Origin: Zygnema cylindricum
Lineage: Eukaryota; Streptophyta; Zygnematophyceae; Zygnematales; Zygnemataceae
Direction: 5' to 3'
Length of the DNA stretch: 58,116 bases
Assembly: GCA_037447655.1 (NCBI GenBank)
Contig: JBBHKE010001474.1
Coordinates: forward strand, 165,077-223,192
In this document: positions 21,108 through 58,116 of the stretch, one piece after another
Position numbering within the stretch: the stretch's first letter is position 1
Layout: the number at the start of each line of letters is the position of its first letter
Program-made: the position numbers and the translations under genes
The notes under the pieces: generated by a model
The model's input: the letters and a program-made list of their open reading frames with translations, nothing else
Databases searched by the model: none
What the model was told of the DNA's origin: nothing

Positions 21108-21182
21108 CACATTAGTATTATTATTGCCGTCCATTATTATTATTATTATTACTATTGCCGTCCATTATTATTATTATTATTG
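21108..21182. repeat. ATT/TTA simple repeat interleaved with TTGCCGTCC words
   Basis: TATTATTATTG, TGCCGTCCATTATTATT and TTATTGTCGTCC alternate three times. The same block is present in copy 2 near 33,911-33,980. It lies beyond the stop of the CCCH gene, so probably in its 3' UTR or flank. Confidence 0.7.
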
Positions 21183-21289
21183 TCGTCCTCCTCGCATGGA
21201 AAACCTGTACATCTTATAAATTGCTATCAAACGAAAAATTATCGAAAAAGTATCGCAATCGAACAAAGAAGTTAAACACAGTTAGTTTC

Positions 21290-22740: not shown

Positions 22741-22830
<90 letters not shown>

Positions 22831-27462: not shown

Positions 27463-28028
27463 TACACCGCCAATCGCTATTAGCGTAGAAGTTTCTTTAG
27501 CGTAAATGAAAAATTACCGTGGTTTACGCTAATTAAGAATTTGAAAATATTGAAAAAAAACATACATTCTAATTGTTTAATAATTCTAATTTGGATCTTT
27601 GAAAAAAAAAAATGTCGGTCGCAAACATGCTTACACTAATATAGGTATTCGTACAAAATCTTACAAATCGTACACAAATCGTACGCTCACACAGTCGAAA
27701 CGTGGTTGCTGGACGAATATGTGCGAACGTGACATTTGACAGCCCGATTAGACCCCCTTTTTAGAGTGCACATTCTCATGCGTCCACGGCTACTAAAACT
27801 CATTATTTATACTTTTTCACTTAAAAAGGTACAATTTTGTACGGTCTGACACTGTCCGTACACCACACTAATTAACTGATGGCGTACTTCCATTTTGTAC
27901 GGTATTAAAAAATTAACCCTAAATAGAGTAAAGAAAAAAATAGAATGAACTACGCTAATGGAGAATAAAATAATAAAAAAAGCGGGACGGAATTAGTGTA
28001 CACAACGCTAATAGCGATTGGCGGTGTA
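27463..28028. mobile_element. MITE A2 (TA-flanked)
   Basis: Ends TACACCGCCAATCGCTATTA and TAATAGCGATTGGCGGTGTA. The interior matches A1, A3 and A4, including 'CTCATGCGTCC' and 'ACTTTTTCACTTAAAAAGGT'. It is duplicated at 40,316-40,881. No coding capacity. Confidence 0.88.
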
Positions 28029-28034
28029 CTGTAA

Positions 28035-28769
28035 GGGTGGCGTTCCATCAGGATTTCCTGTAATTGTACGGCGAACATTACAGGATGCTACATTTTGAAC
28101 GATGTTCTTTCACGTAAAGTCTGTAATCCACGTGCTCGAGAATGAGTGGTACCACGTAAGATAAGATCGTATTTTGAAATCGTCAAATATTTTTTTCACC
28201 GACCAACTTCAACTCGAAATCATCATTTGCATACCATGGACGTGCGGACCAAGGCATCGTACCACACAAATTTTGTACTCTTTGCAAACGCTTGTCAGAT
28301 GCCAGCTCACTTTTTAGGGTTTTTGCTTTTTCGCGTGACGAATGAGAGTTTCCGCAAATAGTGTGACGAATGGCTGGTAACAAAAATAGCGCGACGAAAG
28401 TTCGTACGAAATTACTTTTGTGATTTCGGTTGGATTTTTGAATGTATATATCACGTGCGAAATTTTTCGATTTTCGTTGGTTGCCGTCTTGACACGTATA
28501 TTCATTGTCCAACGTGTCGTCGCTCAATTTTTTCTGTAAATGGTGATGTACCTCCTCGAGGTACATCACCATTTTCAGAAAATTTGGAAGCGAATGCTTC
28601 GCGAAAAAGCATCCAACGGTCATTGTTACCTCCTAGACCTTTGGAGAATATTGGCAAGATTCTCTGTAATGTTGTTCGCCTATAAAAACAGAATAGGAGG
28701 TACGGCGTAGTACGGAGAAGTCCGGATTTCTGTAAACAACCTCACTTTTCGTCTGATGGAACGCCACCC
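28035..28769. mobile_element. non-autonomous PIF/Harbinger-like element C2
   Basis: Ends GGGTGGCGTTCCATCAG and CTGATGGAACGCCACCC are flanked by TAA on both sides (28032-28034 and 28770-28772). The right subterminal sequence, read inward, matches the left end of C1 (CATCAGACGAAAAGTGAGGT). A near-perfect palindrome centred at about 28556 has arms TGGTGATGTACCTC. The left half is included in the 7.5-kb duplication; the right half is not. Confidence 0.88.
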
Positions 28770-33858: not shown

Positions 33859-34087
33859 GCGAAAACATTTCTATTGTTAATACTACCATTTGTTGATGCC
33901 CTTAACACATTAGTATTATTATTGCCGTCCATTATTATTATTATTATTACTATTGCCGTCCATTATTATTATTATTATTGTCGTCCTCCTCGCATGGAAA
34001 ACCTGTACATCTTATAAATTGCTATCAAACGGAAAACTATCGAAAAAGTATCGCAATCGAACAAAGAAGTTAAACACGGTTAGTTTC

Positions 34088-35539
34088 TCATGGAGAAACC
34101 TTAGGTGTTTTATTAGCTTGAGAAGTACTCCCGGGCGCAATTTTCTGGAAAATGGGGAGACGCCGAGGCGAAGACTCCGATGGGGAGGGCGTTTTAATTG
34201 GAAGAGGTGGTGTGGGACTAACAATAGTTGCCGGTGCAATATTTGAAGTCGAAGGAGAGTTAGTTTTAGAAGTATGGTGAATGAATCGACATCGAGTTCC
34301 ATAAGGACACGTGCCGTTTGTATTGAAGGTACGACAAATCTGTATCAGGAAAAAGGCAAAAAAAACAAAAAAGAAACAAGTAAAAGATAAATCGGTGGCC
34401 CGAAAAAACGAAACAAAAACAGTTTTATAAGGTGATAATGTTAAAATAAGGGAAGTTTAAAAAGGTCAATGCAACAAGAATGTAAAAAAAGGTCAAGATC
34501 ATGCTTCTTATCAAAGAGGACTATTTATTGAGAAAGGTTCAAATAACGTTAAAAACCCCGAAAAAAACCCTAAGAAACTCTAAAAACCCTAAAAACCCTA
34601 AAAAATCCTAAAAGAATATTGTATGGAAAGAAAATCCTAAAAGAACATTGTGTAGAAAAAAAAAGTTCTTTACCTCGGTTTTATATTTAGGATGTCGAGC
34701 AACCGGCCGAAGCTCCTCCTGTCCATGAGCAAACTGCAGAAAAAAATAGTATACGGGACCCAACAAAATATCACTTAGAAAGAGTTATCAATTAACTTTC
34801 AAATGATAAACAACGATTTATCCGATCGAAAACACAAGCTATAATCATGAACCCAAAAAGTTGACTAAAACTCAGTGGAAAAAAGGGATCTCCCTCTGTT
34901 TTAACCAAATAACAAGCAAAAAACGGTTATACAGGAGAATCCAAAGTTGCAAGCCTTAATATATAAAACCCTCATATAAAAGAACTTTTAAAAACTCAAA
35001 AAAAATTCGGAAGAATTATATCTAGTGAAGACGGTCAAGGAAAACGACGAGATAAAGGAACAAACTCAAGAACAAAAATGAAAGATGTATTAGTAATGTT
35101 GATTCCAAGGGAACAAAACAAAAAGGCACAGAAAATTGAATATCATTCTTATCAACCCAACTTTTCCAAACAGTAAAATAATACCCGATAAACTGACTAA
35201 AAAACATAATAAATAAAAATCAAAAATTGTTGCATAATCAAAAACTATTACCTGACATTTGGCGCCATATCGGCATGAGCCGGTCTCTTCCCAAGACCGA
35301 CAAAGTTCAGTTTTATAAAGACTGTTGGGAGATTGTGGAGTAGTGGCAGAGACTCCAGAAACATTTGAATTGGAAACTGGACTTCCCGGAGATCCCGGAG
35401 TCAAAACTTGTCCTCGTTGAGAGTCTAAAAGTCCCTCAATTAAGAGTCCTTCCTTTCCATCTGCGAAGACCGTAAAGATGGTCAAAACTCATCCATGCGA
35501 TTATTATTATTAGTAGGAGTAGTAATAATAGTAGTAGTG

Positions 35540-35629
<90 letters not shown>

Positions 35630-38600
35630 TGATCCTTATGTCATCTTTTTTTTGTGGTTGTATGCTATCATGCATGAAACAGTACAATTCGACAAAACCG
35701 GGAAGCCCCTCAAGGACAGAGGATTGGGAGATGTCATATATATTGTGGATTGTAGGAATTTAAAAAATCTGAGCAATCTAATACTAATTAGCTCAAATAG
35801 TTTTAAAGGGATGTGATTACGATGGGGATTGTATGGCAGCTTGATACTAATAAACTTAAAGATTTTTAAAAGGACTTCAAAATTAGGGTTAGGAATGTGA
35901 CTATAATGTGGATTGCACGTATTTCACAAAATCAGACTGGGTAGCAGCATGCCATTGTATTAATTTCAAATATTTAGTAAAAGGACCCAGAATTGGGGAT
36001 GTGGGGATGTAACTACAATGTGGATGGTACAAATTTTACAAATCAGAGCAGCTTAATACAAATAAGACTGAAAAGTGGGAATGTGATTACAATGTGGATC
36101 AATATCGGGAATATCGAGTGCTGAAAGATTGAGCACTGGATGCAGAAATTCCTCCCTTCGAGGTCCACGTGTCAGTCCTGAGGGAACTCCAGCTGAGATA
36201 TTTTCCAAAATTGACCACATATCTCTGCACGCCTCAAAGGAATGTGTGTCCAACGAAGACCTGCAGGTGGCGACCGCTCCCATCATACACCCATTTACCT
36301 GTGACAAATGTCATAAGTGTAGCAAAATAAGACGAGAAACGGGGACACCGAATTTGATGTAAATACTGACTTTCCCATTCATACGAGTCTCATTGCACTC
36401 ATTTTCAAAAAGACAACATAGACCGGTTCACCCGTGAGAAATGTCACAAGTGTATCAAAATAAGACGAGAAAAGGGGACACCATATTTGAAGATAGTGAA
36501 CTTCCCATTTACATGAGTCTTGCTACACATATTATAAAAACGATGACATCCACCTATTCACCTGAGACAAATGTCTCAAGTGTAGCAAAATAAGAGGAAA
36601 AATGGGGACACCGAATTCAATATAGACATTGACTTTCCCATTCATAAGAGTCTCATCGTTTACCTATGATAGTGTCATAACTGTAGCAAAATATAACATG
36701 AAATAGGGACACCAAATGGGATGTAGATACTAACTTTCCCATTCAGACGAGTCTTATTAGATTCCACATTAGACACATATTTTCAGGGGAACTCATACAC
36801 CTATTCACCTGTGATAAATGTCACAATTTTAGCAAAGTAAGACGAGAAATGCAATGGGAATACCTAATTTGATCTACATACTAACACAAAATTTGATTTA
36901 GATACTAGATTTTCCCTTTACAATTTCTGCAGCCTCACATTGTTGTTATAGAGCAGCAATATTTGTTGTTGTATCGCTTGATTGTTAACGATGAGGAATC
37001 AATTAACACATGTTTCCAAAATGGCTTACATTCATCTGTGAGTGTATCAAAATAAGATAAAAAATGGAAAATCAAATCTAATTTTGATACTAACACAAGA
37101 TTTGGTTCAAATACTAGCCATTCCATTTACAGAGTCATCTTAGTAAACAACAGATTCGGACAGTATGGCTGGAAAACAATTCCTCGCGTTCGTAACCGTT
37201 TTGCATACGTCATTCTTCATGCAGTCAATAACATCCTATAAAACAAATTAGTACCAGTTCTTCATCTAGTATTCCATTTAACTGACCAATAACTCAAAGC
37301 CCAACCCAATCCTCCTTACGTTGGTGGTTGAATACTGGCTGGTGAAACAATGGGCCCAAAGCCCATTATAGGCCCCTTCCCCCCTCGAAGGGAAGAAATC
37401 GTCGGTCCAGAGCCAAATTGTATTCCTCTTCCTCCTTCACTCCTCGTCATTGCCTCCTCGTGGCCCACATGAATACTTGCCATTCGATTGTAAAGTGGCC
37501 TCCTTTCTGACAGAGATGGCAAGGATAAGGAAGGAACTTGGAAGAATCCCATACTGGTTTCATCTTCCTCGGTATTAGAAAACTGAGTGTTTTTGTACGA
37601 TTCAAAACCATGAGGGGTATGGAAATTCGGTGAAGACGACCGTCCCGGAAAAAGCATTGGTGGAGACGACCGCCCCGAAAAAAAATTTACTCCTTGCATG
37701 TATTCAGAAAGGCCATAATCATCTTCATAAGATCTTTCCAGTGACTCCCTCTCCTTGTACGGAGAAACAGCTCTTATTGGATTGATCGAGGTTCCTATTG
37801 GACGAAGCAGATTGTTATTTGCAGAAACCTGCAAATGTTGTTAGTCAGAGAATAAACTTAGTATTAGTACCGGAAATGGTAAATAGTCTAATAGATGTTG
37901 GGAAATACCTTTTTTTACATTGGTTTTACTTTTCTGCTTCTAGATTGCTGTAATCCTGCTAATTTTGAGAGCCAGAGAATGCTTATAAATACCAGGACGT
38001 AAATCAAAGAGATGATACAAAAACCGTCAAACCTTCCAGTTTTTTACGCTGTTTTTTTTGGTTTTCTTCGACTCTGTCACAACTACACAACTAAAAACAT
38101 ATTTTTCAGCATTCGAAACTTTCTTCCTGGATTTCTTGGAATTTTGTATAGTTGATATAATGGACTTAATGAAGCTTTGACTACTATGGATCTACTATCT
38201 GCACTTTTTCCGGAATTCTTTGTACTTTTGGTTCTTTCCAAATTGATATCAAATAAAAAATTAATTGTTGTGTATATAATCCAGAACTTGCACAGATATG
38301 CCCAAAAGGTAAAATGTAAAGGGGAAAAGGTAGAAGGTAAAAGAAAAAAAAAAAAAGGTCCATATAATAGCCCCTCCTTCCAAAATATTGCTCTTAAACA
38401 GATTTAGCAACATCGCCATCATTTTTCTTTTATACTTTCCTATAGGTTGTTGACAAAAGATCTCCGATCTTTATTAAATCCGAATAACAAAGTGAATCAG
38501 CTTACAAACCATTTACCTTTTTTTTAAGGATATACAGTTTGGTCGCTATTCTTTTGAGGCATTTTTGTTTTTTTGTTTTTTTTTTTTCTTTTGTAAGTGT

Positions 38601-38653
38601 TGCTTCCCATAAACACTTCCACGAAAAACGACAACATCTTTGCAGACACAAAA

Positions 38654-38721
<68 letters not shown>

Positions 38722-39282
38722 TTCAAAACATACTTGAAAATAATTCATTTCTCTTGAAAATACTTCTTTTATCTTTTCTTCATCTTTCAAGCACCATGTT
38801 TTACTGACTGAACAATTCCTAATTTCAAAATCCCCGAATAATAATCCAAACAAAAGCCACAGTTTACCGAACCTATCAATCTCATACGATTATTTTATCT
38901 TTTGCGAGCTATTTCAATACAAAACCTGAGGTTTCTGACTTACTCTTGCCAATTGTTGCCAGGAAGCCCCTAAAATATCTCTCGAGGGCTCTAAACCCTG
39001 AACGGATCCTCCACTATATCGCTGTGATCCATCTTCATGAGAAGCTACAGAAACAAACGACGCAGTATTGCTATCATTAGAAGAAAGAGTATTTCCATCC
39101 GGGTCTCCAAAGTTTAGAGCTCTCCGGACAGATGATGTCATCTGACGAGACACATGTCCCTGTTGAAGGCTTGAAGAGACCGAAGATGGAGACGGGGCCA
39201 TGGCTGACTTATGAATCAGCGGCCTTCTATGTCCGTCGGAAGAGAGGGATTTCTTGCTGACTGACCGAGGTTCGACCGCCAT
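34088..39282 (-). CDS. tandem CCCH zinc-finger protein (TTP/TIS11 type), copy 2
   Basis: Exons, by alignment to copy 1: 39282-38944, 37828-37320, the uncertain 27-nt exon (37235-37209), 36298-36091, 35460-35252, 34733-34674, 34339-34088. Both C-x8-C-x5-C-x3-H fingers are unchanged. Differences seen: Ser to Leu in the second exon (SLSSPSL becomes SLSLPSL), Thr to Pro in the tail (IKTTSPS becomes IKTPSPS), and the last residue Leu to Pro before the stop. All splice sites are kept, as is the unresolved phase at exon 2. The gene appears as intact as copy 1, so either both are functional or both share the same oddity. Its promoter-side sequence has diverged more than its body. Confidence 0.82.
38661..38719. 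repeat. TA microsatellite in intron 1 of CCCH copy 2
   Basis: About 29 TA units. The same site in copy 1 (25,858-25,866) has about four units. Confidence 0.95.
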
Positions 39283-40315
39283 TGTTGTTGGGAGTTCTGG
39301 AAAACAGAAAACCTCCATGACAATCCGGCCATTTAGGGTTTGCATGACGAAGCCGATAACTACTTGTGAGGTTTGAAGTAACATGCATTGGCAAGCGACC
39401 GTAGATGTTCGGAATTTTCACGTGTGAGAACAAGATCGACGGAAGGCGTTAGGTGCCGGCTAAGAAATGGGCGATGGGGATAAGCGGCTGATGAAGATCG
39501 ACGGCTGGTGCGGTTATTTGTGATTGTGACTGTGACAGGAGAGTCGCATGCATAGAAACGGGCCGACGATTATTGAGTTAACGCGTGTGTAAACTAGATA
39601 ATGTGCGCATCGACGGTGGATTTGAGGAGACCCGTGGCGAGGAAGACGACAAAAGAAGATGAAATCGACGGCTGAGTGTCGAGTTGTAAATTTTTGAGTT
39701 GTGACAATCTGCTGGTGACAGCACTGCAAAAGACCAAAAGACAAAACTGCAAATTGTAAATGATCCGTACTCTTAATGGACGCCCAAGGATCTTCTTTCA
39801 AAATAAACCATAGTTTAGTATGGATAGCATCTGATCTGGGAGATGTCTACTAACATTAGCGTGTATATTTTACTTTTCAAATATTTAGCAAACTGTTGAC
39901 AGAAAGCCACTCTGTTAGTGGCAAATCAGAAAATACTTTCACAAAAAAAGGGATATGAAGTTCTAAATAGCAAATACTGTAGACAATCCAAAAATCTGAG
40001 TTGTGTATGTGACATGGAGAGATCTTAATGGATGATGACTCCCATGGTTTCCGTGAAGCCCTCGGATTTTGTCGGTCGAGGTTCGGGCCGGTTGGTCTGG
40101 ACTTTGGACATACCACGCGACCATAGATTACGAGCCCGGAGTTCGACGAGTACGGTGGAAACTGATGGGAGATTTGATTTTGACAGCATAGAAGCCACCA
40201 ACCAACAGCGAGAAGCTCGTACGGGTGTCACACTATGAAAAATGGCTAACCACAAATGTGTGTACGGTAGAACGGGATTACACGGACGAATGCGGAAAAG
40301 GCAAAATGTCTATGC

Positions 40316-40881
40316 TACACCGCCAATCGCTATTAGCGTAGAAGTTTCTTTAGCGTAAATGAAAAATTACCGTGGTTTACGCTAATTAAGAATTTGAAAA
40401 TATTGAAAAAAAACATACATTCTAATTGTTTAATAATTCTAATTTGGATCTTTGAAAAAAAAAAATGTCGGTCGCAAACATGCTTACACTAATATAGGTA
40501 TTTGTACAAAATCTTACAAATCGTACACAAATCGTACGTTCACACAGTCGAAAAGTGGTTGCTGGACGAATATGTGCGAACGTGATATTTGACAGCCCGA
40601 TTAGACCCCCTTTTTATAGTGCACATTCTCATGCGTCCACGGCTACTAAAACTCATTATTTATACTTTTTCACTTAAAAAGGTACAGTTTTGTACGGTCT
40701 GACACTGTCCGTACACCACACTAGTTAACTGATGGCGTACTTCCATTTTGTACGGTACTAAAAAATTACCTCTAAATAGAGTAAAGAAAAAAATAGAATG
40801 AACTACGCTAATGGAGAATAAAATAATAAAAAAAGCGGGACGGAATTAGTGTACACAACGCTAATAGCGATTGGCGGTGTA
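40316..40881. mobile_element. MITE A2', duplicated copy
   Basis: Copy 2 of A2 with the same ends and TA flanks. It carries a handful of base differences (for example TCGTACGTTC against TCGTACGCTC). Confidence 0.88.
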
Positions 40882-40887
40882 CTGTAA

Positions 40888-41408
40888 GGGTGGCGTTCCA
40901 TCAGGATTTCCTGTAATTGTACGGCGAACATTACAGGATGCTACATTTTGAACGATGTTCTTTCACGTAAAGTCTGTAATCCACGTGCTCGAGAATGAGT
41001 GGTACCACGTAAGATAAGATCGTATTTTGAAATCGTCAAATATTTTTTTCACCGACCAACTTCAACTCGAAATCATCATTTGCATACCATGGACGTGCGG
41101 ACCAAGGCATCGTACCACACAAATTTTGTACTCTTTGCAAACGCTTGTCAGATGCCAGCTCACTTTTTAGGGTTTTTGCTTTTTCGCGTGACGAATGAGA
41201 GTTTCCGCAAATAGTGTGACGAATGGCTGGTAACAAAAATAGCGCGACGAAAGTTCGTACGAAATTACTTTTGTGATTTCGGTTGGATTTTTGAATGTAT
41301 ATATCACGTGCGAAATTTTTCGATTTTCGTTGGTTGCCGTCTTGACACGTATATTCATTGTCCAACGTGTCGTCGCTCAATTTTTTCTGTAAATGGTGAT
41401 GTACCTCC
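40888..41408. mobile_element. PIF/Harbinger-like element C2', left half only
   Basis: Same left end (GGGTGGCGTTCCATCAG, preceded by TAA) as C2. The copy stops at GTGATGTACCTCC, one base short of the centre of the internal palindrome. The right half and second TAA are missing. Confidence 0.88.
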
Positions 41409-42965: not shown

Positions 42966-43286
42966 ACCAAACATGAACCGTTTAAACACTCTTTACATAC
43001 AAATCAACACAGTCTGATCCGACCGACTCCCTAAAGTTCGTTTTTAAACTTTTCCTTTCTCAACTTTTCTTAATTTACACCTTCGTGTAGTAAAAACAAT
43101 GAATGTTGTTTTCATATAAATAAACACGTCTGCAGCGCACAGATTGGATCCGCATGTTTCAACCGACTCTAGTTTTATTGTCGGAGATAAACGACCAAAA
43201 AATTATTAGAGCGTAAACATAATCAAAGTTATAGCTAATTATGTATACGTGGTAACACGGACTCAACATATAGAAAAAAAAAATAC
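42966..43286. other. no feature recognised
   Basis: AT-rich sequence between the MITE array and the copia array; no frame, repeat or inverted ends noted. Confidence 0.4.
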
Positions 43287-43693
43287 TGAAATTCTGTGGT
43301 CTCCATTGATCCACAAAATGAGCAGCCTATGTAAAGCCTCTAGGATAATATTTGGCCCTTCTACTTTCCCGCTGAATAAGCGCCGCCCAGGCACACAAAT
43401 ATTCTGACCACTCTCACCCCTGTGAGGACAAGACTCCCCTGAGTCAAACGCAAAAAGAATCACTGAATTTGCTCACCTGAGCCCCCACTCTCACCAGTCT
43501 TATAAACACACGGACCCGCCGCGAATAAGTCGCCCTTTCATCTTCCCGGTTTATAATAGGATCTCCGAAATGTATCCGACGAGTAAAACACCTAGTTACC
43601 TCTGGTGTCTTAAAGTCATAAAAAAAAAAGATATACAACTCAGGCACAATGGTGCATATGTATTAATCGATATTGAAACTAATACAAATGCGA

Positions 43694-43703: not shown

Positions 43704-43971
43704 GCGCGTACATAAATAATGCCGGTGCTAATTTCGGCTTAAATTAGCCTGCCGGCGGCTTTAATCGTGGCCGTAATAAATACATGCGCGGTATTTGTTT
43801 CATTTACGAAACAAATGCGCGGTACTCATTTATGACCGTACCGTAAGTCGTACATTACATATTACTGGATCTATGTATCCCGTAATTAATTCTAGTTAAA
43901 TGGTTTATCGCAAGAATACATATGTAAATAATTATCAAACTATATGCTACGTAACAATACCTCTAGACGAA

Positions 43972-44040
43972 ACGGCTAAGGCTACCGGCTACTCTGTGTC
44001 TGCCGGCCGGCAGGTACATGGATCAAATCCTGCCGCCGGC
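43972..44040 (+). other. tRNA-like module in the left LTR
   Basis: ACGGCTAAGGCTACCGG (A-box-like) and GGATCAAATCCTGCC (B-box-like) are about 45 bp apart, with GCCGGC stems between and after. It reads opposite to the retrotransposon. Confidence 0.5.
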
Positions 44041-44250
44041 ATATACATTTTAATCAAATATATAAACCCTAATATAAAATTCCCGTAAACCTCAGGATAG
44101 CCAAGGTAGCCATGGCTCTAGCTTCCTCTCCAATTTCTCAGTGACTGCGACAAGTTTGAGAGTTGGAGAGAGAAGTTAGAGATAGACTGCCTCGACTTCT
44201 ATATTTCTTTTCAGACCTAGAAAATACTAATAAAACCATTAGTTTCTACA

Positions 44251-46310: not shown

Positions 46311-47026
46311 CAATATTTAAACAAGCTCATTGGGAGAGAGGCGGCTACTTCCTCAATCCTATAAGTCATAATCCCCTCTCACAACACCTATCTATTGATG
46401 TACGAACCAATCAAAGAACTGTAAAATACAGAAAGGTACCATTGCCGATGTAATTTTTTTACGGCCTGTGTACGACAGTGCCATGGAGTGGACGCCTGTC
46501 TTCTATAGACTTGTTCTCATGCTATCCAAGATTCGTGCTTTCTAATCCTATCGTGCCTCGTGGCTCTAAGTCATGTCACTCCCGAAAACCGCCAAAGCGG
46601 CTATTCTGAGATCTCGACGATGATACGTGCCGTCGGATCTATACCGGTTTTTAATATTAGCTGTTTAAAACAAATGCCCGATACATTTGTTTCGTGCGGG
46701 TTCTGGTTTGTACTATATTACACCTAGTCTCTATGCTTGCTATCTATAATTTTGTTAATCGCATTAATGTTCTTTAGCACTATTTAAGTAGAAGTTAAAC
46801 CCTATATAATCTAACAAACTTCTACGACATATGGGTTAGAGCTGACGGCTACGTCTCGCTCTTCCGGTAGAGGGTTCGAGTCCTGCCGGACTCAACCTTT
46901 TTGTTAAGTGTGACTTATGTTACTCCCTAGACCTGCCTGTGTAGCTAAGGTAGCCATAGCTCCACCACATGTAGCCAAGGCAGCCATGGCTCCACCACTC
47001 TCCCTCTCACCTTCAATGACTATAAC
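46311..47026 (-). mobile_element. middle LTR of the copia array, left part
   Basis: It is homologous to the LTR at 57.4-58.1 kb (GATGTACG.ACCAATCA; GTAGCC.TGGCTC) but lacks the U5 end. It breaks at GACTATAAC (47,026), and the remainder resumes at 53,239 (AAAACAAGTATGGGGG). The break is the insertion of the intact element, and the 5-bp flanks are ATAAC and AAAAC. Confidence 0.8.
46838..46893 (+). other. tRNA-like module in the middle LTR
   Basis: GAGCTGACGGCTACGTCTCGC followed by GGGTTCGAGTCCTGCC, the latter an excellent B-box/T-arm sequence. Too short for a whole tRNA fold. Confidence 0.5.
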
Positions 47027-47917
47027 TGAAATTCTGTGGTCTCCATTGACCCACAGAATGAGCAGCCTATGTAAAGCCTCTAGGATAATATTTGCCCCTT
47101 CTACTTTCCCGCTGAATAAGCGCCGCCCAGGCACACAAATATTCTGACCACTCTCACCCTTGTGAGGACAAGACTCCCCTGAGTCAAACGCAAAAAGAAT
47201 CACTGAATTTGCTCACCCGAGCAGTAAGTTATGGCTGGTCAAAGATGACCTTTATAGTTACAAGCTCTCTTAGAGAGAGAGGTACCTAAATATTACTAAG
47301 TCTCGGTCTTCCTACTCACGACTACCTACTATTAAACCCTAGTCCAATAGGAACACTATAAAGTACAAGAAGGTACAATGGGCGATGTACTTATTGTACA
47401 ACTATTGTACGACAAGGTCTACAAGGTGACACTTGTCATATCGGAAGCCATGGTTCCTCCTCCCATCTTCTTCGGTATCAAATAATGTGGCGCCACGTGG
47501 CACCGCGTGACGCTATATCCGTATGCCGCCGAAAAGCTCACTTCGCGTGGCGGCTATAATGCCGGCCGTCCGATCAAAACATATTTTACACGGTTCAGAT
47601 TCGCGTACATGCAGAAATTGCTCATTTTGGTTAGTCTGCTGTTAATTAGCTGTTTCGTTAATATTTATATATTTATGAAACCCGTCACGTGTATCGTTTC
47701 GTAACGCCTTAATGGTTAAGGCATTAGGCTACCAAGAATATAGAGGTCACAGGTTCAAATCTAGTATTAGGCACTATTTTAGCCAAAATACCCTTAACTG
47801 CAAAAACTGCCGCTTTCTAAATATGGCGGCAGCCATGGCGCGCCTTTGATCCTCACTCTCTTTCTATAAAACAAAACTAAAATAGGGAAGTGAACTATTA
47901 ATTACCTCTTTTCAACA
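47027..47917 (-). repeat. 3' LTR of the intact copia element
   Basis: Starts TGTTGAAAAGAGGTAATTAA after the polypurine tract and ends CACAGAATTTCA at the target site. Same length as the 5' LTR. Confidence 0.93.
47701..47775 (+). other. tRNA-like module in the 3' LTR
   Basis: GCCTTAATGGTTAAGGC forms a D-arm with a 4-bp stem and reads as an A box. GGTTCAAATC is a B box 46 bases on, and ACAGG/CTAGT flank it as a weak T stem. The sense is opposite to the retrotransposon. The acceptor stem is poor, so this is tRNA-like and not a tRNA gene. Confidence 0.55.
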
Positions 47918-47930
47918 CTCCCCTTAATTC
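47918..47930 (-). promoter_or_regulatory. polypurine tract of the intact copia element
   Basis: AATTAAGGGGAG directly before the 3' LTR, where plus-strand DNA synthesis is primed in this family. The stop codon of Gag-Pol directly precedes it. Confidence 0.9.
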
Positions 47931-50900
47931 CTAGTCACTTTTCAATTTTAATCCATAGTTTTCTCTGCAATAAATCAACTTAGGGGAAGGCACTGCTTTT
48001 GTCATCATGTCAGCAATCATTTCTCTATCAGTTTTATGAACCAGTTTAATAATTTTATTTTCTACCTTCTCTCTGACAAAGCTTAGTCTAATATCCATAT
48101 GCTTAGCTTTGAAGTGATGTTTCGGATTAGCTGCAATTGAGATAGCAGCTTGATTATCACAAAAAACATTTTGAGTTCCAGACTTCATGAACCCAAGTTC
48201 TTCAAGAAGAGATTTAACCCACATTAATTCTTTGGTGGCAGCACAGGAAGCCATGTATTCAGCCTCCATAGTGGACTGAGCAACTACTTTTTGTTGCTTG
48301 CTACTCCAACAACATGCACCGGATCCAATTTGCAACACATATCCAGTCGTACACCTCCTTAAAGGCACATCTCCATAACTAGCATCACTCCAAGTGGTGA
48401 TGTCAGTGTGCTCCCCTCCCAAATGCAACCATAATTCCCTTGTCCCCACCAGATACCTCATCACTCTTTTGGCAGCCTCCCAATCTCTCTTTCTTGGTTC
48501 ATTTAGATTTCTACTAAGGACACCTACAGCTGCAGCTATATCCGGACGGGTACAGTTCATAAAATAAATTAAACTGCCTACAATCTGCCGATAAGGGATA
48601 TTTTCCATAAATTTTCTTTCTATCTCGTCCATCTCATCATTAATGATGAATATTCCTCCTTCTTCACTCCCCTCACTCACTTTCTTCAAATCCATGGGAG
48701 TAGTACATCCGTTTGCTTTCTCCATTTGAAATTTTTCTAGCATATTACCGATTGCTTCTTTTTGAGTGAGTCTTATAATTCTATTCCCTCTATCTCTCTC
48801 CATCTGAATTCCCAAAATGTACTTTGCTTCGCCAAGATCTTTCATATCAAAACTGCTTCTAAGATCCCGTTTTAGTTTGTTAATTTTATCTAAGGACTTG
48901 CTTAAGACCAACAAATCATCCACATAAATAGCAATAAATATCACTCCATTCTCATCTTCAAATAAATATATAGAGTGATCTGAACTAATTCTGATATACC
49001 CCAAACCGGTCAGAAATTCGTCGAGCTTTATATTCCACTGTCGCGAGGCTTGCTTAAGCCCATAGAGTGATTTTATCAGTTTGCAAACTTTGTTTTCTTC
49101 CCCACTTTCCACGAATCCTTCCGGTTGCCTCATGTAAATTTCTTCTTCCAACTCTCCGTGCGAAAAGGCAGTTTTAATATCCATCTGGTGGATTTCCATA
49201 TCCTCCGCTGCGGCTATACTTAAAAGGATTCTAACAGAAGGAAATCTGACTACAGGTGCAAAGGTTTCTTCGTAGTCTATCCCCTCTTTCTGTGTATAAC
49301 CTTTTGCAACTAACCTAGCTTTGTACCTCTCAATGGTATTATCCGGGTTTAATTTAAGTTTAAACACCCACTTACATCCGATCGGTTTTCGGTCCGGTGG
49401 ACAATCTACCAACTCCCATGTATTGGCTTCCATAATAGAGGCCATTTCTTCATTTATAGCTGTGATCCACCGGCTACTTTCTGGAGTGTTTATAGCCTCT
49501 AAGTATGTTTGAGGTTCATCTGGGTGAGACATCTTTGTGAGTTGGTTATTTGCTTGTCTTTCTTGAAGTCGTTTACTACTTCTTCTTCCCCCTTCAAAAT
49601 CGGACGCCGGTATGGAAGGCATCCTTGGGTTTCTTTTTGGGAGATTTTCAGCTCCCCTATCTTCCAATTCTGGTGTCTCATCAAGTTCCTCATCGGTTTC
49701 CACTTCGTATTGTGGCGTTGCCTCGGATGTTGTCCTTTCCTCCTTCTCCTTTGGTAGATCTGCAGATTTTTCTTTTTCTCCCTCTTCCTTCTCTTCATTT
49801 TCAAAGTCAAAGTCAGAAAACTGATCCGTTTCAAATCTGATTTTGACTTCCTTATTATATTTGAATGGATCAATGGACTTCTCTTCATTCATCACCACTA
49901 TGTGTTTTACCAAAATTATATCTCTCTTTTTCAAGTCATACACTCGGTATCCTTTTGTGCTCTCATCATATCCTACAAGATATCCTGGTTTCCCTCTTCC
50001 CTCTAACTTCCATTTAGTCTTATCGGAATCCAAACTGTAGACTTGACTTCCGAACACTCTCAAACTAGACAAATCAGGCTTTCTTCCTGTCCACCTCTCA
50101 TACGGAGTTTCCTCCTTATTTGCTGAAGTTAGGACTCTATTTTTGATGAAATTAGCATAGTTCATAGACTCAGCCCAAAACTGCAGCCCTATCCTCTTAT
50201 CACTTAACATACTTCTGGACATATCTCCTAAAGTTCTATTCACTCTTTCTGCTACTCCATTTTGTTCCGGATTATAGGGAACATTTTTCTCATGATGAAT
50301 TCCTTCTTCTTTAAGATATTCTTCAAAATCCCTTGAGGTGTATTCTTTCCCATTATCACTTCTTATCTCTTTTATTGAGGTTTCATGTAGCTTTTCACTC
50401 CATACTTTATACTCTTTGAAACATCTTAATACCTCTGACTTATGTCTAAGAAAGTATACCTTCGTGTATCTAGACCAATCATCTGTGATAGTTAACATCC
50501 ATCTTTTCCCCCCATGTGAGGCATACCTAGCAGGTCCCCAAACATCAGTGTGAACTAGATCTAATACTTTCTCTCTCCTAAATGTGGTTGCCTTTGGAAA
50601 TGGAAGTCTATGAATCTTCCCTTGGGCACATCCACTACAATCATCAGAGGTCTCATCATCTTCAAAAGTAACACCCTCCACTATTCCATTTTTCTTCATT
50701 TTCTTTAATCTATCTAGATGCACATGCCCCAACCTTTTATGCCAAAGCATCATCTCACTTGCACACGAGTAGAGAACACTCTTTTCATTGCAAAGTACAA
50801 TTTTGAACATTCCTTGACTGCCCTTCTCAGCTATGAAATAAACCTCATTATCAAAGCTTGCTGTGAAGATTCCTTTCCTAGTTCCTGTTTCAAACTCCTT

Positions 50901-52367
50901 TTCATCTAGGACAGCTGTTGAGACTAGGTTCTTGCTAAGTTGTGGAATGTAAAGAACGTCTGAGAGTGTTACAATTGAGGCCTTTCCATCAACTAGAACC
51001 TTCAAGTCAACAGTTCCAACAAGACTTGTGGTTTCTACTCTACCATCTCCGTACTCTATCTCAACTGTTGGGATCTTTCTCAGTTTGGTGAACCACCGCT
51101 TATCTTTGCACATATGCATTGAAGCCCCTGAGTCTATGATCCACCCATCCTCGGGTGGATCCCTCTTACCTCCGAAAGCACACTTTTGTCTCCGTGGAAT
51201 GTCGACATGCTTTTCAGTGTTTTTCGGATTAAGGAGAAGCTCCTCAAGCACCTCTTCAGATTCAGTTTTTTCTTCCACTTCCTCATCAAGAACTTGAGTC
51301 AGGAAAGCCTTTTTCTTTCCTCCGTCCTTTGAGGTTCCTTGACCATCTTTCAGTCGAAGATCTGCAAGTCTGACACAATCTGCCATATAGTGTCCCGGTT
51401 TCTTGCAAAAGTGACATAATCCTCCTCGAGAAGTTCCTCTCCCATGTCTATCAAATCTGCCACCTCCTTGTCCTCTTCCACCAAAGTTTCGATAAGGATC
51501 TTTCCCTCTCTCCTCATCACGCTTCCGCCAATCAGCTCCTGCAGACAATGCTTGAACACTTGGACTCCCTCTCCTAAGCACTATGGTGCTTTCTTTCACT
51601 AAAATCATTCCCACAGTGTCATCCCAATTCCAATTGCTATCTCCTATGTCCTGCAATCGGTTAATGATATTCTCATACTCTTCAGGTAGTTTCATCATTA
51701 ATGTGTTCACTCTTTGTCTCTCAGACCATGAGTTACCTGCACTCTCTAACTCTCCAAACAATGCTCCTAAATCATTGCAATAATTATCCATACTTCCTCC
51801 CTTATAAGTATAAGCTGCAATCTTATTTTCTGCCAACTGTTGCTGCTGCAATGATCCACTCTTATATTTGTTAACTAGTGATATCCAAATCTGAGATGAA
51901 GATTTGACATGCATAAGAGGAATGGCAATGCCCTTTGCTACACTTTTAAGAATTAAGAGCTTAGCAACCTTGTCTTTGTAGTTCCACTTTTCAGACTCTG
52001 ATCTTTCGGTCTGAACCCTTGTCGTTGTTGCTGGTGGTGCTGCTGCCGGTATCGCCTTCGGCAATGGTGTTACTTGAGTTGCAACTCCTTCCTTTTCTCC
52101 TTCCATGACAATCTCTTCTCCTTCCTCATCTTCATCCTCGGTGATGGTGGCAGCTGATCTACCAACTGTAGAGGCGGAGGTGCCAGAAAAACGTGTCCCT
52201 CCAAACCCAGGTGGAGGTGGGCATCGAATTTGTCCAGACACTATGCCCCATAAATGCTTCTCAAATAGTTCTCCCTCCATCATCATTTCCCAATAAAGAA
52301 AGTCTGATCCATCAAATATGGGCACCCTAGAGGGTGGGCCCATAACCTGAAATTCTGTGGTCTCCAT
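47931..52367 (-). CDS. copia Gag-Pol polyprotein, intact, 1478 residues
   Basis: One uninterrupted frame encodes all copia functions in the standard order. Gag includes a zinc knuckle (C318-x2-C321-x4-H326-x4-C331). Protease has DSGA at 412-415. Integrase has a zinc-binding start (H543, H548, C577, C580) and catalytic D608, D671 and E707, the last two 35 residues apart. RT has YVDD at 1148-1151. RNase H has D1328, E1368 and D1404, and the protein ends GLKLKSD. There is no frameshift between gag and pol, as is usual for plant copia. The first ATG (52,367) is inside the 5' LTR and a second in-frame ATG (52,343) is inside the primer site. The region between LTR and gag is absent. I take 52,367 as the start because a decayed relative at 57.1 kb keeps MEVSEFQVLG at the same place. 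Confidence 0.95.
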   Translation of the reverse strand: METTEFQVMGPPSRVPIFDGSDFLYWEMMMEGELFEKHLWGIVSGQIRCPPPPGFGGTRFSGTSASTVGRSAATITEDEDEEGEEIVMEGEKEGVATQVTPLPKAIPAAAPPATTTRVQTERSESEKWNYKDKVAKLLILKSVAKGIAIPLMHVKSSSQIWISLVNKYKSGSLQQQQLAENKIAAYTYKGGSMDNYCNDLGALFGELESAGNSWSERQRVNTLMMKLPEEYENIINRLQDIGDSNWNWDDTVGMILVKESTIVLRRGSPSVQALSAGADWRKRDEERGKDPYRNFGGRGQGGGRFDRHGRGTSRGGLCHFCKKPGHYMADCVRLADLRLKDGQGTSKDGGKKKAFLTQVLDEEVEEKTESEEVLEELLLNPKNTEKHVDIPRRQKCAFGGKRDPPEDGWIIDSGASMHMCKDKRWFTKLRKIPTVEIEYGDGRVETTSLVGTVDLKVLVDGKASIVTLSDVLYIPQLSKNLVSTAVLDEKEFETGTRKGIFTASFDNEVYFIAEKGSQGMFKIVLCNEKSVLYSCASEMMLWHKRLGHVHLDRLKKMKKNGIVEGVTFEDDETSDDCSGCAQGKIHRLPFPKATTFRREKVLDLVHTDVWGPARYASHGGKRWMLTITDDWSRYTKVYFLRHKSEVLRCFKEYKVWSEKLHETSIKEIRSDNGKEYTSRDFEEYLKEEGIHHEKNVPYNPEQNGVAERVNRTLGDMSRSMLSDKRIGLQFWAESMNYANFIKNRVLTSANKEETPYERWTGRKPDLSSLRVFGSQVYSLDSDKTKWKLEGRGKPGYLVGYDESTKGYRVYDLKKRDIILVKHIVVMNEEKSIDPFKYNKEVKIRFETDQFSDFDFENEEKEEGEKEKSADLPKEKEERTTSEATPQYEVETDEELDETPELEDRGAENLPKRNPRMPSIPASDFEGGRRSSKRLQERQANNQLTKMSHPDEPQTYLEAINTPESSRWITAINEEMASIMEANTWELVDCPPDRKPIGCKWVFKLKLNPDNTIERYKARLVAKGYTQKEGIDYEETFAPVVRFPSVRILLSIAAAEDMEIHQMDIKTAFSHGELEEEIYMRQPEGFVESGEENKVCKLIKSLYGLKQASRQWNIKLDEFLTGLGYIRISSDHSIYLFEDENGVIFIAIYVDDLLVLSKSLDKINKLKRDLRSSFDMKDLGEAKYILGIQMERDRGNRIIRLTQKEAIGNMLEKFQMEKANGCTTPMDLKKVSEGSEEGGIFIINDEMDEIERKFMENIPYRQIVGSLIYFMNCTRPDIAAAVGVLSRNLNEPRKRDWEAAKRVMRYLVGTRELWLHLGGEHTDITTWSDASYGDVPLRRCTTGYVLQIGSGACCWSSKQQKVVAQSTMEAEYMASCAATKELMWVKSLLEELGFMKSGTQNVFCDNQAAISIAANPKHHFKAKHMDIRLSFVREKVENKIIKLVHKTDREMIADMMTKAVPSPKLIYCRENYGLKLKSD
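52333..52347 (-). promoter_or_regulatory. primer binding site for a half-molecule of initiator tRNA-Met, overlapping gag
   Basis: The minus strand reads GGTTATGGGCCCACC immediately after the LTR terminal CA. Fifteen of fifteen bases are complementary to the anticodon stem and loop of plant initiator tRNA-Met as I recall it (GGTGGGCCCATAACC). This is the site type known for Drosophila copia, primed by a cleaved tRNA. The ATG of the site pairs with the CAU anticodon and is codon 9 of the Gag-Pol frame. Confidence 0.88.
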
Positions 52368-53238
52368 TGACCCACAGAATGAGCAGCCTATGTAAAGCCT
52401 CTAGGATAATATTTGCCCCTTCTACTTTCCCGCTGAATAAGCGCCGCCCAGGCACACAAATATTCTGACCACTCTCACCCTTGTGAGGACAAGACTCCCC
52501 TGAGTCAAACGCAAAAAGAATCACTGAATTTGCTCACCCGAGCAGTAAGTTATGGCTGGTCAAAGATGACCTTTATAGTTACAAGCTCTCTTAGAGAGAG
52601 AGGTACCTAAATATTACTAAGTCTCGGTCTGCCTACTCACGACTACCTACTATTAAACCCTAGTCCAATAGGAACACTATAAAGTACAAGAAGGTACAAT
52701 GGGCGATGTACTTATTGTACAACTATTGTACGACAAGGTCTACAAGGTGACACCTGTCATATCGGAAGCCATGGTTCCTCCTCCCATCTTCTCCGGTATC
52801 AAATAATGTGGCGCCACGTGGCACCGCGTGACGCTATATCCGTATGCCGCCGAAAAGCTCACTTCGCGTGGCGGCTATAATGCCGGCCGTCCGATCAAAA
52901 CATATTTTACACGGTTCAGATTCACGTACATGCAGAAATTGCTCATTTTGGTTAGTCTGCTGTTAATTAGCTGTTTCGTTAATATTTATATATTTATGAA
53001 ACCCGTCACGTGTATCGTTTCGTAACGCCTTAATGGTTAAGGCATTAGGCTACAAAGAATATAGAGGTCACAGGTTCAAATCTAGTACTAGGCACTATTT
53101 TAGCCAAAATACCCTTAACTGCAAAAACTGCCACTTTCTAAATATGGCGGCAGCCATGGCTCGCCTTTGATCCTCACTCTCTTTCTATAAAACAAAACTA
53201 AAATAGGGAAGTGAACTATTAATTACCTCTTTTCAACA
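52348..53238 (-). repeat. 5' LTR of the intact copia element
   Basis: 891 bp, TG...CA, matching the 3' LTR. It holds the promoter, the tRNA-like module (53,022-53,096) and, at its 3' end, the first codons of Gag (METTEF). Confidence 0.93.
53022..53096 (+). other. tRNA-like module in the 5' LTR
   Basis: Copy of the module at 47,701-47,775, with two differences (CTACAAAG and TAGTACTAGG). Confidence 0.55.
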
Positions 53239-53339
53239 AAAACAAGTATGGGGGCTAGAGAGAGAAGGTGGAGGCAGACTACTTGTGCTTTAATCTATTT
53301 AGACGTAGAAAATACCCCCTAAATCTAGTGATTTCAACA
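53239..53339 (-). mobile_element. middle LTR of the copia array, right part
   Basis: It continues the LTR broken at 47,026. Its end, TGTTGAAATCACTAGATTT on the minus strand, directly follows the polypurine tract of internal region 3 (AAATTAAGGGGAG, 53,340-53,352). Confidence 0.8.
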
Positions 53340-56300
53340 CTCCCCTTAATTTCTAGTCTAATATTAATTTTTCATTTAATCCACACTTTTTTCTACAATA
53401 TTTTAGCTTGGGAGATGGCACAGGTTTGGTCATCATATCAACCACCATTTCCCCATCACCTCTATACACAAAATTCACAATTTTGTTTTCAACTTTCTCT
53501 TGTACAAAACTTAATCTTATGTCCATATATTTGGCCTTGAAATGATGTTTTGGATTGGCAACAATCGCAATAGCATCCTGGTTATCACAGAAATCTTCAT
53601 GCACTCCCTCATAATCCATAGATATAACCCAGTTCTTGCAATAAATACTTAATCCACATCAACTCTTTCACAGTGAACTAGAGGCAATGTACTCAGCCTC
53701 TATAGTGGACCGAGCAACCACCTTTTGTTGTTGCTACTCCAACAGCAAACACCTTCCCCCATATACAATACATATCTAGATGTACATCTTCTCATAGGTG
53801 CATCCCGATAGCTGACATCAGTCCAAGTAATGATGTCAGTATGCTCCCCTCCTAAATGCCACCATAAATCTCTGGTTCCCTCCAAATATCTCATGAATCT
53901 CTTGGCTGCCTCCCAATCTCTCTTCCTAGGATCATTTAGACTCTTACTAAAGACTACAACTGCTGCCGCTATGTCCGACCAAGTACAGTTCCTAAAGTAG
54001 ATCAAACTTCCTACAACCTGTCTGTAAGGAATAGACTTCATAAACATTCTCTCTTCTGGACTCATCGGATCAACTAAGATAATCACTCCTTTTACACTCC
54101 CATCGCTTACTTTCTTCAAGTCCATGGGAGTAGTACAACTGTTTGCCTTTTCCATCAATAATTTCTCAAGCATATTCCCTATAGCTTTCGTTCTGAGTAA
54201 GTTTGATAATCTTCTTCCCCCTATCTCTCTCCATTTGAATTCCCACAATGTATCTTGCCTCCCCTAAATCCTTCATGTCAAACCGACTTCTAAAATCTTT
54301 CTTCAATTTATTTATCTTTTCCATAGACCTACTTAACACCAGCAAATCATCCACATAAATTGCAATGAAAATCACACCATTCTCATCTTCAAACATATAT
54401 ATATAATGGTCAGAACTGATCCGAATATATCCTAGACGGGTGAGAAACTTATCTAGTTTCTTATTCTATTGCCTGGGAGCCTGCTTCAATCTATATAAAG
54501 ACTTTATGAGTCTGCAGACTTTACTCTCATGTCCTTCCTCTAAAAACCCTTCTGGTTGCCGCATGAAGATTTCTTCCTTCTTCTAACGGTTGAGGAAGGC
54601 GGTCTTAATATCCATCTGATGTATTTCCATGTCTTGCGCTGCTGCTAGACTAAGGAGAATCCTTACTGATGGGAACCAAACCACTAGAGCAAAAGTCTCC
54701 TCATAATCCATCCCCTCTTTTTGGGTGAACCCCTTTGCTACCATTCGAGCCTTATATCTCTCAATGATATTATCTAGAATCAGTTCTAGTTTAAACACCC
54801 ACTTGCACCTAATCGGTTTTGCGTCCAGAGGACAGTTCACCAACCCCCAAGTATTTGCTTCCATGATGAAGGCCATCTCATCATTTATGGCTCTAACCCA
54901 TCTGTCTTTCTCCGGACTGTTTATTGCCTCCGAATATGACTGAGGCTCATCAGGGTGAGACAACTTTGTTACCTTGTGAGCGGTCTGTTTTTTCTGTAGC
55001 TGGTTGCTGCTTCTTCGTCCTCCTTCAAAATCCCAAGCTAGAATGGAGGGAAGTCTCGGGTTCCTCCTCACTGTCTCATCAGCTCTTTTATCTATGGAAG
55101 CTCGTTCTGACTCCTCCTCCTTTTGTCTCTTCGGAGTGTATAGGGATATGGAGAGATTATGGTATTTCTACCCTATCTGGCATCTTCCCTGAATCTGCAA
55201 TCACTTTTTCACTCTTGTCCATTTCGGGAGAATCCGAGTCCTCCTTACTCTCGGACTCAAAACTGATTTTTATTTTCTTAGTATATTTGAAGGGATCAAA
55301 TGACTTCACTTCATCCATAACAACATAGTGTTTTACCAAGATGATATCTTATTTTGCTAAGTCAAAGACTCTATAACATTTGACATACTCATCATATCCC
55401 ACAAAATATCTAGGTTTTTGTTTGGCATCTAGTTTCCAATTTTTCCTGTCGGTATCAAGACTGTAAACTTGACTACCGAATACTTTCAGGTGAGAGACAT
55501 GTGGTTTCATTCCAACCCATCTCTCATAAGGTGTCATCTCTTTCACAACTGAGGTAAGGACTCTATTCTTAATGTAGTCAGCACGATTCATGGCCTCTAC
55601 CCAAAATCTTTTTCCTACCTTCTTGTCGGCCAGCATACTACATACACTATCTCCTTGAATCCGATTCAACCTCTGAGCTACCCCATTCTGTTTTGGATTA
55701 TACGGAAGAGTTTTCTAATGGTGAACTCCCTCATCCCTCAAGTATTCCTTAAACTGGTTAGAGGTATATTCTCCTCCATTGTCACTCCTTATCCTTTTAA
55801 TGGGGGTTCTATGCAACTTCTCACGCCAGGCTTTATACTCTTTGAAGTTAGTTGGTGCCTCTGACTTTGTTTTTAGGAAGTATACTCTATAGTGTCTAGA
55901 AGAGTCATCAGTGATTGTCATCATATACCTCTTTCTCTTGATCGAAGGTACTTTTGCCGGTCCCCAGATATCTGTGTGGACCATATCTAGTACTTTCTCA
56001 CCTTTATATGTGGCAGTTTGGGAAAAGGGATTCTATGAGCCTTTCCTTGGGCAGAACCACTACAATCATCCATCATTTTACTATCCCGAAACTGAATCCC
56101 TTCTATTACCCGAAGCTTTTTCATTTCCCTCATCCTATCAAAATGAACATGCCCCAACCGTTAATGCCACATCATCATGTTTGGGACACTAACATAGTAA
56201 GCATTCTTCTTTTCATTACTCAAGTTAAGCCTAAACATTCCTTAGCTACCCATATCTGCTGTGAAGTAGACTTTATCCCCATACTTTGCTGTAAAGACTC

Positions 56301-57137
56301 CTTTTCTAGTGAAGGTATCAAATTCTTTATCATCTAATACATACGTAGAAACAAGATTTTTGCTCAGCTGAGGAATGTAGAGTACATCTGAAAAGGTGAC
56401 TATAGAATTCTTACCGTTTAGTAAGACTTTCATATCTGCCGAGCCCACTAGATCTGTGGTAACTACTCTCCCATCCCCATACTCTATCTCTACAGTAGGG
56501 ATCTTTTTTAGCTTGGTGAAGAGGTGTTTGCACGACACATATGCATGGATGCACCTGAGTCGATGATCCAACCTTCTTGTGGGGCTTCTCGAATGGCTCG
56601 AAGGGCACACTTTTGTTTTATAGGGATCTCCTACTCCTCCATTTTCTTGTCAAGAAGAAGCTCCCCATCCTCCTCCTTATTGGACTGGTCCTCTTCGGTC
56701 TCCCCTTTTACTTATATAACCACAAGTGCCTTTTCCTTCCCACTGGAAGAACATCTTGCAGGGTTCTCTTGGAGTCTTAGCTCCGACAGCTTGGTACAAT
56801 CCGCTATGAAGTGTCTCGGCTTCTTGCAAAAATGACAAAGGCCCTTTGGGGGCCTCGGTCCCCCAGATTGATCTTTCTCTCATTTGAAGCTGTTGTATGG
56901 CTTCCTCGAATCTTTCCCCCATCGGTCTGTTTTGGCAGCTAGAGCTTCAACGCTTTTTCCTCCTCTCCGAATCTCAATAGTGTTTTTCTGCACAAGTATC
57001 ATTCTAACCACTGTATTCCACTTCCACGAACTGTCATCAATTTCCTAAAATTGGTATACTATTTTCTCATACTCATCAGGCAGCTTCAAGATGAGGGTGT
57101 TGACCTTCATCTTTATTGTTCTTATCCACCTAGCACT
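53340..57137 (-). pseudogene. degenerate copia internal region 3
   Basis: Reading leftward from 57,137: a gag scrap (KLPDEYEKIVYQF), a zinc-knuckle region (56,700-56,920), protease/pre-integrase (56,242-56,610, KKIPTVEIEYGDG), integrase core (55,715-55,984: HTDIWGPA, IRSDNGGEYTS), integrase C-terminus (55,349-55,669), RT (54,583-55,071 and 54,166-54,396 with YVDDLLVLSRS), and RNase H (53,353-53,760). Frames are split by stops and frameshifts. Most of the N-terminal gag is deleted, so the LTR end runs almost straight into mid-gag. Clearly a relative of the intact element. Confidence 0.85.
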
Positions 57138-58116
57138 TGAAACTCTGAGACCTCCATAAGTCCTCACAGTGGACAGCTTCCAAGAAGCCTCTAGGATAAT
57201 CCTGACCCCTTTGTGTTTAAGCAAAAATAACTGCCACCCTGGCAGACAAAAACTCTGACCAACTTCACCCCTGTGACGACAAGACTCCCCTGAGTCGATA
57301 GCAAAAAGAATCTCTGAATTTGCTCCCCTGAGCAGTAAGTTATGGAGGGTCAAAGTTGACCTTTTGTACAGAAGCTCTCTGGGAGAGAGGGTCCTATCTT
57401 CTAATTTTTCTAAGTCCTATCTCTCTCACAAACTCTATCTACTGATGTACGGAACCAATCAGAATTGAGTTCCGTACGTAAAAGTACAGCTGCCGGTGTA
57501 CTTTATGTACGGACATTGTACCACATGGCCAAAATGTCGACACATGTCAAATCCGGATTCGGTGCCATAATCTTCGGAGATTCCACAATCCAACGGAATT
57601 TCGCCACGTGTCATCCGATGTGGCGATGGCCACAAACCGCCGAAATCTTCCTCCGCGATCTGGGCGCTAATCTCGGCCGTCCGATTAAAGTCGGCTTTAA
57701 TCGTAGCCGTAATAAATACATGCGCGGTATTTGTTTCATTTACGAAACAAATGCGCGGTACTGATTTGTGTCCGTACTGTAAGTCGTACATTTATATTTT
57801 ACTGGATCTATGTATCCCGTAATTAATTTCAGTTAAATGGTTTATTGCACGCATAAACATTTAAATAAATATCAAACTATATAGTACGTAACACTACTGC
57901 TAAACTTAACGGCTAAGGCTACCGGCTACTTCCTATCTGCCGGCCGGCAGGTACATGGATCAAATCCTGCCACCGGCACATACCTTTTAATTAAATAAAT
58001 AAACCCTAACATAAAATTCCCGTAAACCTAAGGATAGCCAAGGTAGCCATGGCTCTAGCTTCCTCTCCAATTTCTCAGTGACTGCGACAAGTTTGAGAGT
58101 TGGAGAGAGAAGTTAG
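57138..58116 (-). mobile_element. right LTR of the copia array, running off the window
   Basis: Its U5 end (minus strand ...AGTCTCAGAGTTTCA-like) is at 57,138; the other end lies beyond the window. It shares GCGCGGTATTTGTTTCAT, CCGGCCGGCAGGTACATGGA and later blocks with the left LTR at 43.7-44.2 kb. It contains a tRNA-like module at 57,905-57,975. Confidence 0.8.
57905..57975 (+). other. tRNA-like module in the right LTR
   Basis: Same arrangement as in the left LTR: AACGGCTAAGGCTACCGG, then GGATCAAATCCTGCC, with CCGGC stems. It is antisense to the element. Confidence 0.5.

Follow-up and report, generated by a model that had tools for sequence, protein, structure and literature searches.

The locus described here raises the question of whether one short stretch of RNA can serve a retrotransposon both as the primer site of reverse transcription and as codons of Gag, and which AUG then opens the reading frame. 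The window, i.e., the whole stretch of DNA that was analysed, comprises 58,116 nt of a contig of the alga Zygnema cylindricum. The element of interest (element A) lies on its minus strand. It belongs to the Copia superfamily of LTR retrotransposons and is very abundant in the genome. The best explanation of the data, to which we assign a probability of about 0.8, is a Copia element primed by a tRNA half, in which Gag starts in U5 and its codons continue across the LTR end and primer site.

Element anatomy and the putative coding primer site

The overall organization of the element is as follows.

52348..53238, minus strand: 5' LTR, 891 bp, TGTTG...TTTCA, with borders read in the sequence
47027..47917, minus strand: 3' LTR, 891 bp, identified by its match to the 5' LTR
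47931..52367, minus strand: intact gag-pol ORF, 1478 codons, from the ORF list, translation and Pfam
47918..47930, minus strand: polypurine-rich tract, 13 purine-rich bases between the gag-pol stop and the 3' LTR, read directly
53239..53243, minus strand: 5' flank GTTTT, which pairs with GTTAT at 47022-47026

The two LTRs match at 99%, with 8 substitutions between them, and the flanks form an imperfect target-site duplication with 4 of 5 positions equal. Pfam assigned Retrotran_gag_2 (residues 116-257), rve (602-700) and RVT_2 (982-1225) to the gag-pol protein. The element thus has LTRs, gag, and an integrase ahead of the reverse transcriptase, the arrangement of Copia (Pseudoviridae). The protein begins METTEFQVMGPPSRVPIFDG, and its predicted Gag N-terminus is METTEF|QVMGPP, in which the bar precedes the codons shared with the LTR end and the primer site. 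The features at this junction are given below.

52365..52367, minus strand: ATG within U5 (5' LTR), the likely start codon of Gag
52348..52367, minus strand: U5 tail coding METTEF and the CA of a Gln codon (translation)
52332..52349, minus strand: codons Q V M G P P across the LTR end and primer site (translation)
52333..52347, minus strand: putative primer-binding site GGTTATGGGCCCACC, a 15-mer, in frame
52341..52343, minus strand: ATG within the primer site, in frame, a possible secondary start
52368..52757, minus strand: LTR leader ahead of the U5 start, 390 nt, with no ATG in any frame

The 15-mer lies directly behind the 5' LTR end ...TTTCA (52347 down to 52333), and no second match to it with up to 3 mismatches occurs in the window. 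The frame reads CAG GTT ATG GGC CCA CCC and is continuous with the 1478-codon ORF; the terminal CA of the LTR and the primer site together encode QVMGPP. The first-pass annotation had proposed that the site directly after the LTR CA is also coding, in the Gag frame, and the LTR borders, translation and ORF all confirm this.

GGTTATGGGCCCACC is taken to be the complement of the anticodon arm of a plant-type initiator tRNA-Met. Under half-tRNA priming, the host initiator tRNA-Met would presumably contain GGTGGGCCCATAACC at nt 25-40. The complementary 16-mer was present in 18 viral contigs, and in 5 of the 18 it lay inside a tRNA-Met gene; these are viral and not host genes. The 15-mer occupies nt 26-40 or 27-41 of the five genes, across the CAT anticodon. 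The complementarity to the anticodon arm suggests that the element is a half-tRNA-primed Copia and on this ground supports the earlier proposal of copia-type priming. Because the proposed pairing involves the anticodon arm, the paired triplet would itself be the in-frame AUG.

Other repeats lie in the window. A related but broken element (element B) occupies 53239-58116 on the minus strand and shares approximately 74% DNA identity with element A in pol. Element A appears to be inserted approximately 100 bp inside the 3' LTR of element B; the rest of that LTR was unmatched on the other side of A. An LTR fragment at 43286-43482 (minus strand) shares 97.5% identity with the final 197 bp around the LTR end of element A and ends in ATGGAG...TTTCA. 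Upstream of it, past a gap of 10 N, 43756-44179 (minus strand) resembles the LTR of element B (91.5%), and the two pieces are perhaps a chimeric LTR. Two stretches of approximately 7.5 kb each, 21061-28555 and 33859-41408, are 99.1 to 99.6% identical in the same orientation; they stem either from a recent duplication or from a single element present in two copies.

The start of Gag

The gag-pol ORF opens 24 nt (8 codons) upstream of the primer-site ATG, inside the LTR. This start was absent from the first-pass annotation, the coordinates of which had 52367, its first base, as their upper end. The nearest stops upstream in the gag frame are 12 and 19 codons before the U5 ATG. An ATG-free stretch of 390 nt, a segment bounded post hoc by its two ATGs, was equalled by 0.05% of 2,000 dinucleotide shuffles. 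Since these 390 bases hold no ATG, the U5 ATG would be the first AUG of any transcript that starts within them.

We compared the junction with its copies elsewhere in the genome (352.8 Mb, 2,689 contigs). The primer-site 15-mer has 5,974 exact copies, far above chance, against 6 for the reversed control. Of 100 loci listed, 80 were inspected; they are related by descent and are therefore not independent tests, and because they were selected by the exact primer site, the invariance of the site among them is uninformative. A CA directly precedes the primer site in 73/80 copies. An ATG stands exactly 20 nt ahead of it in 74/80, and the next commonest offset was found in 2. The U5 leader is open in frame in 65 of the 80 copies and interrupted by a stop in 9; the other 6 have no ATG at this place. 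At least 100 codons stay open in the primer-site frame of 41/80 copies and in the other two frames of 0/80. The expected conservation of site and frame among family members is supported. Sixteen of the sampled copies have 300 or more open gag codons; all 16 carry the U5 ATG, and the leader is open in 15, i.e., in all but L011. The leaders themselves vary among subfamilies (MEVSEF, MEDTEL, METTEF, MEPIEF and others), while the start position and frame are constant.

Judged by eye, 79 of the 80 copies have a recognisably related U5 end. The remaining copy, L020, is of another type: it has the same primer site and a MAEIGMDN-like leader outside the primer-site frame, resembling the leaders of the database proteins P0018 and P0021 described below. 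It perhaps belongs to a second family in the same genome.

The scarcity of ATG extends to the copies. Among 73 of them, the ATG density was 0.16-0.60 per 100 nt at positions -350 to -21, compared with 1.36-2.22 farther upstream. ATG was the rarest of the seven triplets counted in each of the four leader bins; other triplets were low in single bins.

The first-pass annotation had suggested a Gag start at the primer-site AUG, so that initiator tRNA-Met would read and prime the same triplet. This AUG is in frame and has a strong context (GTTATGGG, G at -3 and G at +4), better than that of the U5 AUG, and a protein that starts there would still keep the FDGxxFxYW stretch of Gag. Moreover, the leader contains a TAA in 159 copies with the primer site and in 646 LTR ends with the 20-mer, and those 159 copies could start at the primer site. 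They include L011, which has a stop in its U5 leader and at least 505 open codons downstream.

The partner LTRs allow the age of these stops to be judged. During reverse transcription, a single RNA end supplies the U5 of both LTRs of a new retrotransposon copy; therefore, an inherited TAA should stand in both. We fetched the predicted 3' LTR ends of 20 TAA copies, of which 8 had an LTR end and 12 had no recognisable end. In all six informative elements, the first base of the codon in the partner 3' LTR is G (5 GAA and 1 GAG), with TAA in none; the predicted 3' LTR of L011 reads GAA. The partner LTR of L099 lacks one base at this codon and is hence uninformative. The exception is L095, where a second element in tandem carries both the primer site and TAA; this either contradicts the rule or results from recombination. 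The absence of stops from the partner 3' LTRs indicates that the U5 stops mostly arose after insertion, and the primer-site AUG as the sole start is therefore not supported by them. A lineage of TAA copies starting at the primer-site AUG likewise found no support in the same six informative elements.

The change itself, G to T, which converts the fifth U5 codon from GAA to TAA, has occurred repeatedly, in at least two subfamilies, and apparently mostly after insertion.

Two further observations argue against initiation at the primer site: the in-frame AUG upstream, preceded by 390 ATG-free bases and kept in 74/80 copies, and the upstream in-frame Met in the database ORFs of P0004, P0018 and P0021. 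We therefore do not follow the earlier suggestion for the Gag start and regard the primer-site AUG as a very improbable sole start.

A second alternative is the use of both AUGs. Mostly U5 initiation, with some leaky scanning to the primer site, would yield Gag with and without eight extra residues. Both AUGs are in the same frame, and the -3 base of the U5 AUG is C, a poor context, in 55/74 copies. A weak U5 context followed by the strong one at the primer site makes leaky scanning plausible. There is, however, no sign of selection for it, and we consider dual initiation a tentative possibility. Accordingly, the earlier idea that the same initiator tRNA reads and primes one triplet is not supported for a sole start and may survive for secondary initiation.

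The reverse alternative is that the primer site is open in this frame by coincidence, the sequence being kept only as RNA, and that Gag starts downstream, e.g., at M28-M30. The six U5 codons agree with this in part. Across the 74 copies that possess the U5 ATG, their mean entropies at positions 1-3 were 0.66, 0.44 and 0.49; this lack of a codon-position pattern gives no sign of selection on the U5-encoded peptide. In the 15 gag codons behind the primer site, however, the corresponding values were 0.40, 0.43 and 0.95 in the same 74 copies. Because variation there is highest at the third position, the protein is selected from that point on, i.e., before M28. A start at M28 would also lose the FDGxxFxYW stretch, and the same frame and an upstream Met are present in three relatives, the polyproteins of which align locally at 36-57% identity. 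A start at M28-M30, which the first-pass annotation had named as a finding that would speak against its own reading, is thus given hardly any credence. The start in U5, with Gag read through the primer site, remains the preferred reading.

We also examined the predicted RNA structure around the two AUGs.

52352..52380, minus strand: predicted hairpin whose loop holds the U5 start codon (RNA fold)
52398..52408, minus strand: U5 arm of a predicted stem around the start codon and primer site (RNA fold, copy comparison)
52323..52333, minus strand: gag arm of the same predicted stem (RNA fold, copy comparison)

The fold of the region has a z of -2.05, and 6 of 200 shuffles fold equally well. In it, the U5 arm pairs with the codons just behind the primer site. 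Complementary U5 and gag arms of at least 11 nt were found in 30% of the 80 copies, compared with 7% after shuffling. CATCTAGG in gag is mostly accompanied by the matching change CTAGAT in U5, with the exceptions of L022, L023, L042, L050 and L063. The evidence for a conserved U5-gag stem enclosing the start codon and primer site is suggestive only. The hairpin in U5 is reminiscent of the complete anticodon arm of the tRNA, which is likewise a hairpin.

Relatives of the element

Element B provides a diverged example in the same window. Across its LTR/gag junction (LTR end 57138) it reads MEVSEFQVLG, and the ATG at -20 is kept, after 356 ATG-free bases. The frame is also kept, while the primer-site sequence is lost and part of gag is missing.

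More distant relatives were sought among database proteins. The protein set of 123 consisted of that of the window element, 2 from a gag-only search and the best 120 of 6,711 matches to the pol search. Gag-only searches returned 2 matches each, the query itself among them in one. QVMGP was found near the N-terminus in 4 of the 123 proteins, namely that of the window element and, at residue 10-11, P0004, P0018 and P0021. The last three are the best-scoring relatives of fewer than 1,600 residues among the pol-search matches listed, and their local-alignment identities to the window protein are 57%, 37% and 36%, respectively. They start with MGSSMETIESQVMGP (P0004), MAESDDENSQVMGP (P0018) and MATDEDETQQVMGP (P0021), and in each of them the first methionine is 10 or 11 residues before VMGP. 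In a reverse transcriptase tree of the 123 rows, the window element and these three proteins form one clade with a support of 100/98. As read from the protein, QVMGP in the three relatives would correspond to the primer site. Many other database proteins may be deposited without their true N-terminus. Because the pol search was limited to the best 120 of 6,711 matches, these proteins give a minimum estimate of how widely QVMGP occurs.

Contig searches yielded few additions. CAGGTTATGGGCCCA had 9 matches in viral contigs, none of them Copia-Gag-like in short translations, and no protein-related loci were found in viral contigs. Among genome contigs there was a single such locus, with a match from 1,731 bases onward in its contig. 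This is a Copia-like reverse transcriptase in a bacterial assembly (Robertmurraya kyonggiensis record, L010, contig of 4,351 bp, coverage 0.3), and it is most likely a contamination.

Comparison with known systems and the proposed mechanism

Drosophila copia primes from a half-tRNA and starts Gag downstream of its primer site. In the window element, in contrast, Gag most likely starts in U5. The genus Hemivirus (Pseudoviridae, type copia) is set apart by the use of only a short tRNA segment as primer (PMC8515867). By complementarity, the window element would share with it a short internal tRNA segment as primer.

In plant Copia, primer sites for half-tRNA-Met have been described for Osser, Bryco and part of Gymco-II (Neumann et al. 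2019, PMC6317226). These lineages and the window element have the Copia domain order in common, and in the latter a putative primer site of the half-tRNA-Met type adjoins the 5' LTR. The available portion of PMC6317226 describes them without a primer site inside Gag or a start in the LTR, whereas both are predicted here.

A coding primer site is known from Ty1. According to PMC5454406, its 5' UTR is 53 nt long and its primer site (nt 95-104) lies within the GAG coding region, with the AUG upstream. Ty1 and the window element therefore share a coding primer site with an in-frame AUG upstream, and in the window element the frame is open through the site into Gag. However, the primer of Ty1 is the 3' end of tRNA-iMet, while that of the window element would be the anticodon arm, by complementarity. 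For BARE of barley, PMC3735527 reports that translation and replication are split into two RNA pools. BARE and the window element are both plant Copia elements with a single ORF, in which one transcript has to serve translation or replication; BARE, however, has an untranslated leader between the LTR and gag, which the window element lacks. A literature search conducted mostly outside subscription journals gave, in the texts accessible, no instance of a half-tRNA Copia lineage with a primer site that is translated. The half-tRNA primer site and the coding primer site are each known, and their combination looks unreported in the searched literature.

On the preferred reading, the cycle of the element may be pictured as follows. 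Cleavage of initiator tRNA-Met in its anticodon stem would leave a 5' half that anneals behind the LTR and primes reverse transcription. Translation of Gag would start at the first AUG of the genomic RNA, within U5, and the ribosome would then move across the LTR end into the primer site, reading QVMGPP from the two. If Gag is read through both, the integrase end (CA), the primer site and the Gag codons share bases. An RNA under translation could presumably not hold the annealed primer; by analogy with Ty1, a switch from translation to packaging and priming would be needed first. A bolder extension is that a whole clade carries the start, the integrase end and the primer site as one coding block with a fixed QVMGP, and that annealing of the tRNA half over the secondary AUG is itself the switch from Gag initiation to cDNA synthesis. 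We consider this extension unlikely.

Retroelements use one RNA as messenger and as template, and in this element the conflict between the two uses becomes explicit. Extrapolated from the 80 copies examined, the primer site appears to lie within the first Gag codons of thousands of copies, and a wider clade apparently shares this arrangement. As a protein-level marker, QVMGP close to the start of Gag may help to find half-tRNA-primed elements in protein databases. An LTR with a start codon and six codons could, in addition, give rise to fusions with neighbouring host sequence if a 3' or solo LTR is transcribed. The family would offer a natural case for studying how translation and priming are kept apart.
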